Shown: piece by piece, positions 29,718-63,470 of the stretch
How the letters are laid out: every line of letters starts with the position of its first letter
Numbering within the stretch: the stretch's first letter is position 1
Source of the DNA: Desulfomicrobium sp. ZS1
Lineage (GTDB): Bacteria; Desulfobacterota; Desulfovibrionia; Desulfovibrionales; Desulfomicrobiaceae
DNA length: 64,000 nt
Assembly (NCBI RefSeq): GCF_024204645.1
Contig: NZ_CP100351.1
Location: forward strand, 3,064,001 to 3,128,000
Direction of reading: 5' to 3'
The notes under the pieces: generated by a model
Told to the model about the DNA's origin: nothing
The model's database searches: none
Seen by the model: the letters and a program-made list of their open reading frames with translations, nothing else
Translations under genes and position numbers: made by a program

Positions 29718-30086
29718 TTACAACACCTCTGGGGCTAAAGATACAATCTTCATAAAGTTCTTTGCCCGCAATTCACGTGCAACAGGCCCAAAAATACGAG
29801 TGCCCATCGGCTCAAGGTTCTTATTCAGCATAACTGCTGAATTATTATCGAAACGGATAAAAGTTCCATCGGGCCGACCGATCTCTTTTGTTGTTCTTAC
29901 AACTACTGCCTGGAGAACATCGCCCTTTTTTACTTTACCATGAGGGATCGCTTCTTTGACGGCCACCATAATGATGTCGCCAACACGAGCATATCGTCTC
30001 TTGCTTCCGCCTAGCACCTTGATGCAGGCAACCTTCTTGGCTCCGGAATTGTCTGCGACATCCAAAGTCGTCTGCATTTGAATCAT
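29718..30086 (-). CDS. rplN: 50S ribosomal protein L14
   Basis: Intersubunit-face protein and docking site of the silencing factor RsfS. 122 residues beginning [19 protein letters not shown], with the [20 protein letters not shown] segment. Located 11 nt after rpsQ at the head of the spc group. Confidence 0.98.
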
Positions 30087-56087: not shown

Positions 56088-56732
56088 TTAGGAAAGACCC
56101 TTGGCTTGATTGATCGAAATATTGAAAGCCACGGAAAAAATATGGTGCATGAAGTCAACGTATTCGACCGCAACATTTTCCGGAACAGAAATTCTGGCTG
56201 GCGCAAAATTCACGATGCCCCGCACACCCGCTTCAATCAAATAATTGGCGGCACGCTGGGCTCGTTCGGGAGGTGTGGTGATGATGCCTATTTCAATCTC
56301 GAGTTCGCTGACTTTTTCCTTGAGCCTACGCGAACAGACAACCTCCAGACCAGCGACTTCCTCGCCAATCTTGAAGGGATCACAATCAAAGGCACCCACA
56401 AGAATAAACCCGCGGCGCCTGAAAATACCATGCCTGAGTAATGCCCGCCCCAAATTCCCGACACCAACCAATGCGACATTCCATGTCCGGTCGATACCCA
56501 GAGACTGTTTGATGGCGGTCAATAAATCCTGAACATAGTATCCGACGCCTCGCACGCCGAATTCACCAAAATAAGCCAGATCTTTTCGAATCTGCGAAGG
56601 GTTCACGCCGCAGGCACGGGCCAAGCCGTCTGAAGAAATGACGGAATCCCCCTCTTGAAGGAGCGTCTCCAGAACTTGTACGTAAACAGCCAATCGCTGA
56701 ATCGTGGCGCGAGGTATATGGGCGCTTTTCAA
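56088..56732 (-). CDS. rex: Redox-sensing transcriptional repressor Rex
   Basis: Represses energy-metabolism genes when NAD+/NADH is high and releases DNA when NADH binds. The TTG at 56732 is preferred (GGAG 5 nt upstream; gives KSAHIPRATIQRLAVYVQVL as the start, matching the family); the ATG at 56747 adds five residues. The 214 residues have a winged helix (GVNPSQIRKDLAYFGEFGVRG) and a Rossmann fold (VALVGVGNLGRALLRH). It is downstream of the Fo ATP synthase genes on the same strand, beyond a terminator. Confidence 0.95.
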   Translation of the reverse strand: MKSAHIPRATIQRLAVYVQVLETLLQEGDSVISSDGLARACGVNPSQIRKDLAYFGEFGVRGVGYYVQDLLTAIKQSLGIDRTWNVALVGVGNLGRALLRHGIFRRRGFILVGAFDCDPFKIGEEVAGLEVVCSRRLKEKVSELEIEIGIITTPPERAQRAANYLIEAGVRGIVNFAPARISVPENVAVEYVDFMHHIFSVAFNISINQAKGLS

Positions 56733-56777
56733 AATGACTCCAAACAATAACTTCTTGAGTTATTTCACTAAAATAGC

Positions 56778-56812
56778 AAAAAAAAGGGGGAGGCTGGGCC
56801 TCCCCCTTTTTT
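56778..56812. terminator. Bidirectional terminator between atpE and rex
   Basis: GGGGGAGG/CCTCCCCC stem with 5-nt loop, flanked by A8 and T6, so it terminates on both strands. It lies 10 nt after the atpE stop. Confidence 0.93.
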
Positions 56813-56822
56813 CCGATCGGAG

Positions 56823-57146
56823 TTAGCCAACGAAGGGGTTGGCGAACAGCAGGATCAGGTTAACAACCAGGGCGTAGATGGCCAGAGATTCGATCATGGC
56901 CAGACCGATCAGCATGGTCACGGTGATCTTGCCGGAAGCTTCGGGGTTGCGGGCGGTGCCTTCGCAAGCAGCCTTCAGACCAAGACCCTGAGCGATGCCA
57001 CAACCGGCAGCGGCGATAGCCATGCCCAGAGCGGCGGCCCAAGAGATGGTGGAAATGACTTCAGGAGCGGCGTCAGCGGCGAAAGCGCAAGAAGCAACGG
57101 CAACCAAAGCGACAGTGGCCAGTACGGACAGGAAACCTTTACGCAT
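56823..57146 (-). CDS. atpE: ATP synthase Fo subunit c, with signal-like N-terminus and Na+-type ligands
   Basis: Rotor-ring proteolipid. 107 residues, longer than most c subunits because of an N-terminal signal-like sequence ([24 protein letters not shown]). The hairpin has [20 protein letters not shown] in the first helix and loop, and [15 protein letters not shown] in the second. Gln, Glu-Ser and Tyr occupy the positions used for Na+ coordination in the Ilyobacter-type c ring. It follows atpB after 61 nt. Confidence 0.95.
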
Positions 57147-57207: not shown

Positions 57208-57912
57208 TTAGTGAGCTTCTTCAAAAGCGCCCTTCAGGTACAGCATGGACAGCATGAAGAAGACGAAGGCCTGAATGACGTCGGCCAGCAGAAACAGGAA
57301 ATACATCGGGATGGTGGACACGACGGGCGCAAGCATGAACAGCAGGGCCAAAACAATGTCCTCACCACGGATGTTTCCGAAAAGTCGCAGAGAAAGTGAC
57401 AGCATGCGCGCGAAGTGCCCGATCACTTCGATCGGGAACATGAGCGGCGCCATCCACAGCATGGGTCCGGTAAAGTGGTGAATATAATGGGCGCCATGCA
57501 ATTTCAAACCCCAGTATTGGTAATAGACGAAAACAAACACAGCCATGGACGCGGTTGTGTTGATGTTCGCGGTAGGCGCATCGCCACCTGGGATCATGCC
57601 GCCGACGTTGCAGCACAGGATGTAGATGAAAAGCGTGGCCAGGACCGGGAACACTTTGCGCCCGTCCTCGCCCATGTTGGCTACGACGAAATCCTCGAGG
57701 CCGCCGATCAGAAACTCGAAGAAATTCTGCAACCCTTTGGGCACGAGAGAAATCTTCTTGGTCGCCATCAGAGCCACCGCGATCAGAATGGCCATGATGG
57801 TCCAGGAATACAGGACGTTCACGGGAATCAAAGAATGACCGTGAGCGTCGACAAGACCGATGGCCTTTACTGCTTCTTCAACGAGAAAAATTGGATGCAA
57901 CCCCCCTGCCAT
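57208..57912 (-). CDS. atpB: ATP synthase Fo subunit a
   Basis: Stator channel subunit of Fo. From the ATG at 57912 (GGAGG 6 nt upstream) it has 234 residues; an upstream start would overlap atpI. The essential Arg is in MLSLSLRLFGNIRGEDIVLA, with a last helix VIQAFVFFMLSMLYLKGA. Only 1 nt separates the atpI stop from this start. Confidence 0.96.
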   Translation of the reverse strand: MAGGLHPIFLVEEAVKAIGLVDAHGHSLIPVNVLYSWTIMAILIAVALMATKKISLVPKGLQNFFEFLIGGLEDFVVANMGEDGRKVFPVLATLFIYILCCNVGGMIPGGDAPTANINTTASMAVFVFVYYQYWGLKLHGAHYIHHFTGPMLWMAPLMFPIEVIGHFARMLSLSLRLFGNIRGEDIVLALLFMLAPVVSTIPMYFLFLLADVIQAFVFFMLSMLYLKGAFEEAH

Positions 57913-57913
57913 T

Positions 57914-58330
57914 TTACGCCTCCTTAGAAGTTTTCCCAAAAAATTGTGACATTCCCCAAAGCAAAATATTGATCAGGACGGTGGATACCCCCAGCAACAA
58001 CCAAGGGACCGACGATCCCTTAACTGCTATCAGCAGATACAGGGCCAGGGCCGTCAGCACCAACCGCCCGTAAAAACTGAATAACTGGACTGCCACCGCG
58101 CCTTTTTGCAAATACACGACTTCCTGGATGACTTTGCCCATGGCAAGGAAGTTGATGCTTCCGAGCAGCACCCCCGCGACAAAGTCCACCCCCATGCCGC
58201 CCAGCAACAAAGCGGGCAAGGATCCCAGTAAAATGCAAATCTGGTGCAGCGCCATCTTGCGCACTTCCGGGACATGAAAGCCCCGGGCGTACAGCCCGCG
58301 CTCAATCTTTTTTTGTATTCTCTGGAGCAT
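57914..58330 (-). CDS. ATP synthase subunit I (AtpI-like)
   Basis: Four-helix membrane protein of 138 residues matching the ATP-synthase protein I family, thought to help assemble the c ring or supply Mg2+. Helices lie near residues 29-46, 50-68, 78-102 and 108-128. It overlaps the preceding atpZ gene by 29 nt and is followed by atpB after 1 nt. The family is weakly conserved; context carries the call. Confidence 0.83.
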   Translation of the reverse strand: MLQRIQKKIERGLYARGFHVPEVRKMALHQICILLGSLPALLLGGMGVDFVAGVLLGSINFLAMGKVIQEVVYLQKGAVAVQLFSFYGRLVLTALALYLLIAVKGSSVPWLLLGVSTVLINILLWGMSQFFGKTSKEA

Positions 58331-58565
58331 CCGCTTCCGCTTCTTTTTTCTGTATGCGCTTCATTTCGCGAAACATGTTCTTGTATCCGGCCACGATCCC
58401 GAAAACCAGGAAAAGCAGCATGAGCCACGGTTTGGTCCCGAAAAACTTGTCGAGATAGTACCCCATCCCCATGCCCACGATCACGCCGGACACCAAGTGT
58501 ATTCCCATCATGGACGCAAGGCCCAGCGATTCGAAATGCTTATTTTTTTTCTTGTTAAAGAACAT
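58302..58565 (-). CDS. Putative F0F1 ATPase accessory protein (AtpZ-like)
   Basis: 87 residues with two membrane helices (LASMMGIHLVSGVIVGMGMG, WLMLLFLVFGIVAGYKNMF) separated by YYLDKFFGTKP, as in the AtpZ/ATPase_gene1 family. A basic head and a Lys/Glu-rich tail are cytoplasmic. First gene of the Fo cluster, preceded by a candidate Rex box. Confidence 0.85.
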   Translation of the reverse strand: MFFNKKKNKHFESLGLASMMGIHLVSGVIVGMGMGYYLDKFFGTKPWLMLLFLVFGIVAGYKNMFREMKRIQKKEAEADAPENTKKD

Positions 58566-58602: not shown

Positions 58603-58620
58603 TCGTGCAATAAATCACAA
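58603..58620. promoter_or_regulatory. Candidate Rex operator before the Fo ATP synthase genes
   Basis: TCGTGCAATAAATCACAA matches the Rex palindrome TTGTGAA-N4-TTCACAA at 11 of 14 fixed positions. It lies 38-55 nt before the atpZ start. The rex gene sits at the other end of this small cluster. Confidence 0.5.
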
Positions 58621-58835
58621 ATCGAAATCGGGGCTACCATAGCCCCCAACTTCGCGTCAATCAAAGTTTTGCGCAAACGCCGATTTTCTCACCTCTCCGA
58701 GCCCTCCATCGCCTCACATGCGCAGAACCCAAGCCGGCGTCCACAGTCCCGCCAGCTTGCCAGCCCGTCGTATTCGCACTATGCCCAAACACGAAATCAA
58801 CAACCCTGGCACAACAGCCAGCAGCACGAGAATCA

Positions 58836-61271
58836 ATGAAAACCATCCCTGAACTCAAAGTCCGCCAGCTCAAGATCGAGCCGGATCCACGCAAAATCCT
58901 GCGCAGCACCGACATCCGCGACAACGTCAACGCCGTGTGCCTTTTCCAGCCCCGGGCCCGCAAGGCCCTGGAGATGGGCCTCTCCATACCTGGCATGGAA
59001 TACAATGTTTATGTTGCCGGAGAACCGGGACTCGGCCGGACTTATCTTGTTGAAAACTTTCTTCTTCCCCAGGCCCAGGCCGGCACGACGCCACCAGACC
59101 TCGTCTATCTGAACAATTTCGACAACCCCGACAAGCCGCTTCTGGTCAGCCTTACACCCGGTCGGGGGAAAATCCTCAAAGAGAACCTGCAGCGCATCGT
59201 CAAGCGTCTTCGCCGCGACCTGCCGCGTCACTTCGAGCAGGCCAGCTATCTCCGACTGCAGAACAAGCTCTTCACCAAACTGGCCCTGGTACGAGACGAC
59301 CTGATGGACAGAATGGATGAAGCCGCCCAGAAAAAGGGATTCAGCCTGAACATCGACGACTCCGGGGCGGTTTCGCTGACACCGCTGGTGGAAGGCAAAG
59401 TCCTCAGTTCGGAAGAATTCGAACGTCTTGAGTCATCCCAGAAAAAAGTCATCAAGGATCAAAGCAGCGCCGTGCTGAACACCATTGCGGACCTTTCGCG
59501 GCTGGTCAACAAAAGTGAGCAGGAATTCCGGGCCAAGGAAGTGCAGTTGGCGCAAGAACATGCCGCGAGTCTCGTGGACCGCCTGCTCATGCCGATCCAC
59601 AAAAAATTCGCCGAAAACAAAATTCTTAAGAAATATTTCGAGTCCTTCAAAGAAGACATCCTCGAAAACCTGCCCCATTACCAGGGCCGGCAGGAGCGTG
59701 AACCGCGCAACGGCCCGGAGCAGCCGGGCGAGGGCCTGTCGGACTCTTTCTTTGGGCGCTATGATGTCAACCTCTTTGTGGACAATTCCGAAGTCACCGG
59801 CGCGCCAGTGGTCAAGGAGATCAACCCCGGTTTTTTCAACCTCCTCGGCTGTGTGGAGCGTGAAACGGAATGGGGCACCTACTACACGGATTTCTCCCTG
59901 ATCAAGGCCGGGGCGATACACCGGGCCAACGGTGGGTTTCTCATACTGCGCGTGGACGACCTCTTGAACCACCCCGCCGCCTGGGAAGGCCTGCTGCGCT
60001 GCCTGCGCACCAAACAGTCGAGCCTTGACGACCCCACGGATCATTACGACATGCTGCGCACCCGCACCATCAGCCCGGACCCGATCCCGCTTTCCCTCAA
60101 GGTGCTGCTTATCGGTGACGACGAGACATACGAACTGCTCTACATGCACGACGAACGGTTCAGGAAGATATTCAAGCTCAAGGCTCATATCCAGGACACC
60201 GTGGAACGCACGCCTGAATCCATCACCGGATATGCCCAGGCCCTGGACCGCGCCGGACGCGAAACCGGCCTGCGCGGATTCACGAAAGACGCTTACGCCG
60301 AGCTTGTGAACTACTCGACCCGCATGGCCGAAGACAGGGAACGACTGTCGCTGCATTTCTCGCACTTACGCGAAATCATGATCGAATCCAATGCATTGGC
60401 CATCAGCCAGGACAAGCGCATCATCGACGCCGGCATCGTCAAGCTGGCTCTGGATGAACGAGAGTACCGGACCAATCTCTACCAAGAGGAATTCCTGCGG
60501 GAATACGACCGCAGATCCATCAAGGTCCTCACCCAGGGGCAGGGAGTCGGCGTGGCCAACGGCCTGTCCGTGACCCAGGTCGGGGATTACGTCATGGGTC
60601 TGCCCCATCAGATATCCTGTACGGTAGGCGTGGGTCACGGCGGCATCATGGACCTGGAACGGGAGGCCGAACTGGGCGGGCCCATTCATACCAAGGGCAT
60701 GATGATCCTCAAGAGCTATTTCGTGAACCTCTTTGCCCGCAACAAACCGCTCGTGCTGACCGGCAGTCTCTGCTTTGAACAAAGCTACGCCCAGGTCGAC
60801 GGAGACTCGGCATCCGGCGCGGAGCTGGCCGCCCTGCTCTCCGCCCTCTCAAACGTGCCGATCCGTCTCGACCTGGCCTTCACCGGGGCCATCTCCCAGT
60901 CGGGGGCCATCATGGCCGTGGGCGGGGTCACGCACAAGGTGGAGGGCTTTTTTGAGGTTTGCAGAAGACGCGGCCTCACCGGCCAGCAGGGAGTCCTGCT
61001 GCCCAGAGACAACATCGTGCATCTGGTGCTCAGGGACAATGTACTGCAGGCCATAAAGGACGGGCAGTTCCATATCCATCCCGTAAGCACCATCGAGGAG
61101 GCCATGGAGTTCCTGACCGGCACACGAGCGGGCGAGCGTTTGAAAGACGGCCGTTTTTCGCCGAACTCCATCTACGCGGCCGTGGATGAAAGGCTGACCG
61201 AGCTTGCGGTTCTGGCCGAAAAGAAATGCGCCATGCCCAGGCGAAAAAGCATAAAAAAAGCCGGATCCTAG
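58836..61271 (+). CDS. LonB/YcbZ-like ATP-dependent protease (AAA_32 + Lon S16 domain)
   Basis: 811-residue Lon-family protease without the usual N-terminal LAN domain. The AAA module has Walker A (GEPGLGRTYLVENF) near residue 66 and is interrupted by a long coiled, charged insertion; the second part has GGFLILRVDDLLNHP (Walker B-like). The Lon peptidase domain has the catalytic Ser in GDSASGAELAALLSALSN and the Lys in AVGGVTHKVEGFFEV. Its TAG stop lies inside the loop of the downstream terminator. It is divergent from the Fo ATP synthase genes across a 270-bp gap. Soluble; substrates unknown. Confidence 0.93.
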   Translation: MKTIPELKVRQLKIEPDPRKILRSTDIRDNVNAVCLFQPRARKALEMGLSIPGMEYNVYVAGEPGLGRTYLVENFLLPQAQAGTTPPDLVYLNNFDNPDKPLLVSLTPGRGKILKENLQRIVKRLRRDLPRHFEQASYLRLQNKLFTKLALVRDDLMDRMDEAAQKKGFSLNIDDSGAVSLTPLVEGKVLSSEEFERLESSQKKVIKDQSSAVLNTIADLSRLVNKSEQEFRAKEVQLAQEHAASLVDRLLMPIHKKFAENKILKKYFESFKEDILENLPHYQGRQEREPRNGPEQPGEGLSDSFFGRYDVNLFVDNSEVTGAPVVKEINPGFFNLLGCVERETEWGTYYTDFSLIKAGAIHRANGGFLILRVDDLLNHPAAWEGLLRCLRTKQSSLDDPTDHYDMLRTRTISPDPIPLSLKVLLIGDDETYELLYMHDERFRKIFKLKAHIQDTVERTPESITGYAQALDRAGRETGLRGFTKDAYAELVNYSTRMAEDRERLSLHFSHLREIMIESNALAISQDKRIIDAGIVKLALDEREYRTNLYQEEFLREYDRRSIKVLTQGQGVGVANGLSVTQVGDYVMGLPHQISCTVGVGHGGIMDLEREAELGGPIHTKGMMILKSYFVNLFARNKPLVLTGSLCFEQSYAQVDGDSASGAELAALLSALSNVPIRLDLAFTGAISQSGAIMAVGGVTHKVEGFFEVCRRRGLTGQQGVLLPRDNIVHLVLRDNVLQAIKDGQFHIHPVSTIEEAMEFLTGTRAGERLKDGRFSPNSIYAAVDERLTELAVLAEKKCAMPRRKSIKKAGS

Positions 61272-62889: not shown

Positions 62890-62966
62890 CCGCCCTTAGC
62901 TCAGCTGGATAGAGTAGCGGACTTCGAATCCGTTGGTCGCATGTTCGAATCATGCAGGGCGGGCCA
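62890..62966 (+). tRNA. tRNA-Arg (anticodon TCG)
   Basis: 77 nt with encoded CCA. Acceptor CCGCCCT/AGGGCGG is perfect, anticodon loop CTTCGAA, T loop TTCGAAT. It begins 9 nt after the small ORF stop. Confidence 0.95.
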
Positions 62967-63123: not shown

Positions 63124-63199
63124 GCCGGGGTAGCTCAGTCGGTAGAGCAGGGGACTGAAAATCCCCGTGTCGGCAGTTCAACTCTGTCCCCCGGCACCA
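63124..63199 (+). tRNA. tRNA-Phe (anticodon GAA), copy 1
   Basis: 76 nt with encoded CCA. Acceptor GCCGGGG/CCCCGGC, anticodon loop CTGAAAA, T loop TTCAACT. Followed by its own terminator. Confidence 0.97.
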
Positions 63200-63394: not shown

Positions 63395-63470
63395 GCCGGG
63401 GTAGCTCAGTCGGTAGAGCAGGGGACTGAAAATCCCCGTGTCGGCAGTTCAACTCTGTCCCCCGGCACCA
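63395..63470 (+). tRNA. tRNA-Phe (anticodon GAA), copy 2
   Basis: Identical in all 76 nt to copy 1, including the encoded CCA. Confidence 0.97.

Follow-up and report, generated by a model that had tools for sequence, protein, structure and literature searches.

A candidate Rex operator behind the promoter-like element of the Fo ATP synthase operon in Desulfomicrobium and much of the Desulfovibrionales

Introduction

For Desulfovibrio vulgaris Hildenborough, control of sat by Rex was reportedly described by Christensen in 2015. A study in this organism gives a rise of the sat transcript of approximately 11-fold in a rex deletion strain, and of approximately 4.6-fold in a mutant without the Rex site (PMC7531388). 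This system resembles the one proposed here in having a Rex from the same order, in working by repression and in the kind of boxes found at sat, but its target is sat itself, whereas the target considered here is the Fo operon of the ATP synthase, on which we found no experiment.

Repression of an ATP synthase by Rex is as such already known from Streptomyces avermitilis, where direct repression of atpIBEFHAGDC is proven (PMC5355995). The footprinted box reported there, TTGTGATACGGTTCACGA, is close to the Fo box described below (PMC5355995). The setting differs, as S. avermitilis is an aerobic actinomycete with one complete atp operon and a box lying over the -35 region (PMC5355995), whereas here the Fo and F1 genes are separate and the -10 precedes the box. 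For sulfate reducers, a narrow literature search, covering parts of papers and lacking the regulon reconstructions for the Desulfovibrionales, returned no statement on Rex control of ATP synthase, and the passages on Rex in PMC4215793 name Rnf and sulfate-reduction genes; the sulfate-reducer case may, on this slender basis, be new.

A nearly identical palindrome was first predicted as the signal of a different regulator, with sat and apsAB as its targets, in an account of the HcpR regulon of Desulfovibrio (PMC545781). HcpR is described there as a CRP/FNR factor tied to hcp (PMC545781).

Results

The window analysed here is a stretch of 64,000 nucleotides from the genome of Desulfomicrobium sp. 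ZS1, which is a single contig of 3.87 Mb. On its minus strand the window carries, in the order atpZ, atpI, atpB, atpE, rex, a cluster of Fo genes together with the regulator gene. These are atpZ (58302..58565; ATPase_gene1, PF09527), an atpI-like gene (57914..58330) that falls under the cut-off for PF03899 and was named from its position in the cluster, atpB for Fo subunit a (57208..57912; PF00119), atpE for Fo subunit c (56823..57146; PF00137) and rex (56088..56732), for which the TTG at 56732 is a likelier start than the TTG at 56747. Open reading frames and family searches agreed with the earlier note that rex lies just past atpE. The gene after rex is, as read from its frame, that of a peptide-release-factor, and a gene for a LonB-like protease runs divergently from a start at 58836. 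Elsewhere in the window, a tRNA-Arg (TCG) gene at 62890-62966 precedes two tRNA-Phe (GAA) genes (63124-63199 and 63395-63470) of equal length and with similar flanks.

The product of rex has the N-terminal DNA-binding domain (PF06971) and the Rossmann domain (PF02629, CoA_binding) of a Rex protein, and scored 333 bits against the NCBIfam equivalog NF003993 (cut-off 217). Seven of the eight PDB sequences that match it are named Rex and the eighth AT-rich DNA-binding protein, with the stretches QIRKDL, YFGEFG and RGVGY alike in the window's Rex and these PDB relatives; among the named relatives, the Rex of a Desulfomicrobium is 96% identical. The same genome also encodes a second, divergent Rex-like protein with 36% identity (G000:C1:842467-843036; L002), and similar proteins (31-41%) occur in eight more of the 41 genomes searched.

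The candidate Rex operator, TTGTGATTTATTGCACGA, occupies 58603..58620 of the minus strand, 38-55 nt upstream of the atpZ start at 58565 and separated by a 10-nt gap from the proposed -10 hexamer that precedes it. It agrees with the consensus TTGTGAANNNNTTCACAA at 11 of 14 specified positions, one arm being imperfect (TGCACGA against TTCACAA), and the strand, sequence, distance and score are all as the earlier note had given them. Taken alone, the score of 11/14 is worthless as evidence, since the window holds 3 consensus matches of 11/14 or better against a mean of 2.98 in 100 shuffles. The counting of consensus matches was rejected as evidence for a Rex box at this chance level. A consensus scan of the whole genome, allowing up to 3 mismatches, gave 127 matches per strand against 61 for a backwards control, and its use for deriving a regulon was given up as too noisy.

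A symmetric matrix was built from 24 distinct sat, aprB and F1-operon boxes of relatives, with no Fo site among them; these training sites score 14.5-24.3 bits. By this matrix the Fo box scored 16.6 bits and ranked first of 63,983 window positions (runner-up 12.7 bits), although the independence of the matrix is only partial because the training boxes were selected by their likeness to the consensus. The box kept rank 1 when either the apr or the F1 training sites were dropped; with the sat sites dropped it came second at 14.2 bits, position 30076 being first at 14.9. In the matrix scan that the earlier note had proposed as a check, therefore, the score of the site was not low and its rank was 1, or 2 without the sat sites. 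The footprint pattern TTGTGANNNNNTGCACGA has its single mismatch-free occurrence in the genome at the Fo site, the pattern itself being derived from the footprint at that site.

The Fo box is conserved across much of the order. Rex orthologues were found in 39 of the 41 genomes searched (G004 gave no match and G009 a distant match only), and 35 of the 39 loci were readable, with atpZ adjoining rex, the remaining four comprising one contig edge and three genomes of Desulfovibrio type. Within the 260 nt before atpZ, the best match was at least 11/14 in 33 of the 35 readable loci and 10/14 in the other two; in one locus (L057) an 11/14 match lies elsewhere upstream of atpZ and the promoter-associated match is 10/14. 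In the three Desulfovibrio-type genomes atpZ lies away from rex, with an upstream match of 9/14 at most. With 80 loci added from other genome contigs, in part from overlapping genomes, 119 Rex sequences were clustered at 90% identity into 54 clusters, 47 of which had a testable region upstream of atpZ. Matches of at least 11/14 were present before atpZ in 29 of these 47 dereplicated clusters, where 0.91 were expected from shuffles, and matches of at least 12/14 in 15 (0.05 expected), so that the conservation in relatives to which the earlier note had looked was found. Outside the genus a common form of the box is TTGTGAA-N4-TGCACGA. The Fo site thus stands above chance by its position and conservation, not by consensus count.

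Among the 18 clusters without an 11/14 match, three (L059, L158 and L162) have a 10/14 match or lose part of the box to a start set in the wrong place. The remaining 15, with titles of Desulfovibrio, Bilophila, uncultured Desulfovibrionaceae and, in one case, Betaproteobacteria, have rex near atp genes but no clear box; absence of the box in these 15 is provisional, because atpZ and its start were placed there by weak matches. No credible atpZ was found in either G004 or G009, perhaps owing to assembly gaps, and the use of these two genomes as a natural control without Rex was dropped for this reason.

Upstream of the box lies a promoter-like element, for which we propose TTGACG (58655..58660, minus strand) as the -35 hexamer, with its conserved TTGAC at a fixed spacing, and TAGCCC (58631..58636, minus strand), with TGG ahead of it, as the -10 hexamer, the TGnTAG block being invariant in five genera. 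The alignment of these five genera, from four families, has as its invariant blocks TTGAC, TnTGnTAG, TTGTGA and TG-AC, together with one lone G. The pattern TTGA[CG]-N16-20-TGnTA was found in 23 of 48 sequences and was absent from 25; all 23 pattern-matching sequences have a TTGTGA or ATGTGAA half-site 11-14 nt downstream of the TA, a distance at which the box would fall close to the start of transcription. A generic sigma-70 promoter scan did not report the element before atpZ, because that scan demands a T which is missing from TAGCCC. An inverted repeat, GGGGCTA-TGG-TAGCCCC, spans the proposed -10 (58630-58646).

Similar boxes were found at other operons. The F1 operon, the first gene of which carries PF00430, lies elsewhere on the chromosome and has in this genome the box TTGAACAAAAATTCACAA, 14 nt past the TA of a promoter-like element with TTGACA. 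Of 39 loci, 36 carry an F1 box of 9-12/14, and its distance past the TA is 13-15 nt in 33 loci and 34 nt in three; in the three Desulfovibrio-type genomes no F1 box follows the TA, and an 11/14 match lies directly before the -35. Upstream of sat, a box of at least 11/14 was present within 300 nt in all 30 of 30 loci. Among 9 further loci, 7 have such a box no more than 200 nt away, and in five of the 9 the sat match has only 27-33% identity and hence an uncertain start. In the window's genome the box at aprB (PF12139) scored 21.2 bits, being itself one of the training sites of the matrix, and that at adk (PF00406) 18.8 bits, from outside the training set. The adk box lies directly upstream of the adenylate kinase gene (L103, about 1501-1518; G000:C1:890630). 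The three Desulfovibrio-type genomes G030, G034 and G038 (L262-L264; L122, L126, L128) have a sat box of 12/14 but a match of 9/14 before atpZ, and appear to have a rewired Rex regulon.

Between atpE and rex lies a terminator-like hairpin (56777..56815, minus strand; -26.5 kcal/mol) followed by a T run. A hairpin before at least four T was present in this gap in 32 of 38 loci, a count that stands without a shuffle control, three of the hairpins being weaker than -10 kcal/mol; in a regional scan, which gave 8 terminator-like sites against 3.7 expected, the atpE-rex hairpin had the longest stem. A box of at least 11/14 directly before rex was found in 21 of 51 clusters (0.43 expected from shuffles). 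In the window's genome the match at this place, TAGTGAAATAACTCAAGA (56753..56770, minus strand), is weak, at 10/14, 0.8 bits and rank 86, and a Rex box before rex is by itself unsupported there. Between the hairpin and rex, a strong Rex-like box is frequent in families other than that of the window's genome and suggests a separate autoregulation of rex there.

The earlier note had seen in the cluster a local redox feedback, a reading that calls for two corrections. The hairpin makes feedback through a single atp-rex transcript doubtful and, with the boxes before rex, indicates that rex is probably expressed partly apart from atp, so that feedback through the atp transcript would be partial at best. 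Nor would the control be local, given the boxes at F1, sat, aprB and adk. What stands of the claim is its core, the predicted Rex box for the Fo genes, which is well supported.

Discussion

We consider it highly probable that 58603-58620 is the operator for repression of the atpZIBE (Fo) operon by Rex. As the box lies directly behind the promoter-like element, a bound dimer would be expected to block RNA polymerase. NADH-free Rex would thus occupy the Fo operator and keep atpZIBE repressed, and a rise in NADH would release Rex and allow atpZIBE to be expressed. The promoter, the binding of Rex, the repression and the release by NADH are steps that we infer from the sequence and its conservation.

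The main rival to Rex at this site is HcpR, because its signal in Desulfovibrio, TTGTGANNNNNNTCACAA, is nearly the same palindrome. HcpR or another CRP/FNR regulator would then bind the site, and the signal sensed would be, for example, nitrosative stress and not NADH. Three CRP/FNR regulators of this genome were examined, one 798-aa cNMP-binding protein being left out. Two of the three have Pro or Gln (GTTPETISRVL, GTSQETLSRVL) in place of the Arg that is linked to the signal. In E. coli CRP a Glu and a second Arg stand beside this signal-linked Arg; the helix of the third regulator, L300 (GVHRVTLNKCL), is without both in a by-eye alignment. L300 does retain the Arg that Rodionov tied to the signal (PMC545781), and the region upstream of its own gene has TTGTCATTTTTTTCACGA, at 12.3 bits (G000:C1:953551-953568; L101, L300). 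As a group, however, the recognition helices examined here fit the published signal poorly (PMC545781). A similar match, TTGTGAATGATTGCTCTA, lies near hcp in the window's genome, but the region upstream of hcp holds in addition an FNR-type palindrome, TTTGACTCAGATCAAA (both in L095, about 1448-1518; G000:C1:708306 region). Rodionov 2004 assigned the sites at sat and apsAB to HcpR (PMC545781), and a later paper describes low-affinity binding of HcpR1 at the sat promoter, with Rex said to bind identical sites (PMC5701242); against this, sat is shown to be controlled by Rex in D. vulgaris (PMC7531388). The linkage in the cluster is, moreover, to rex, with no CRP/FNR gene. Control of the Fo site by an HcpR-like regulator is weakened by these observations, and we regard it as improbable.

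Still less likely, in our view, is that the conserved element serves the 5' leader, through RNA structure or ribosome access, and is not a repressor site. The element does fall inside the proposed leader and lies in some relatives approximately 20 nt or less from the start codon, but both of its arms are like the Rex dimer motif, similar boxes are found in the unrelated leaders of F1 and aprB, and at sat one box lies upstream of a TTGACA. That the match arose by chance next to a conserved but unrelated promoter is a reading for which the equality of 11/14 matches in the window with shuffle expectation could be cited; it has next to no probability against 29 of 47 clusters with 0.91 expected and a fixed distance to the promoter-like element.

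Under the preferred reading, in which Rex represses the Fo operon from this operator, the further boxes at F1, sat, aprB and adk point to a joint switching of the ATP synthase and of sulfate activation. Rex probably co-represses both of the split halves of the ATP synthase along with sulfate activation, and the NADH/NAD+ ratio would probably switch the production of ATP synthase and the ATP-consuming activation of sulfate together. More tentatively, and with less than even confidence, we suggest that in the Desulfovibrionales Rex could be a common switch of ATP supply and demand in sulfate respiration (Fo, F1, sat, apr and adenylate kinase), that the imperfect arm of the Fo box could give a weaker, graded response, and that the Desulfovibrio-type lineages could have rewired this control, with loss of the Fo box and retention of both rex and the box at sat.

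If the preferred reading is true, the level of ATP synthase in these sulfate reducers would track the NADH/NAD+ ratio, as would that of the ATP-spending enzymes of sulfate activation, and a change of atp mRNA is predicted in rex deletion strains of organisms that possess the box. It would also give a reason for rex adjoining the Fo genes in many genomes of the order.
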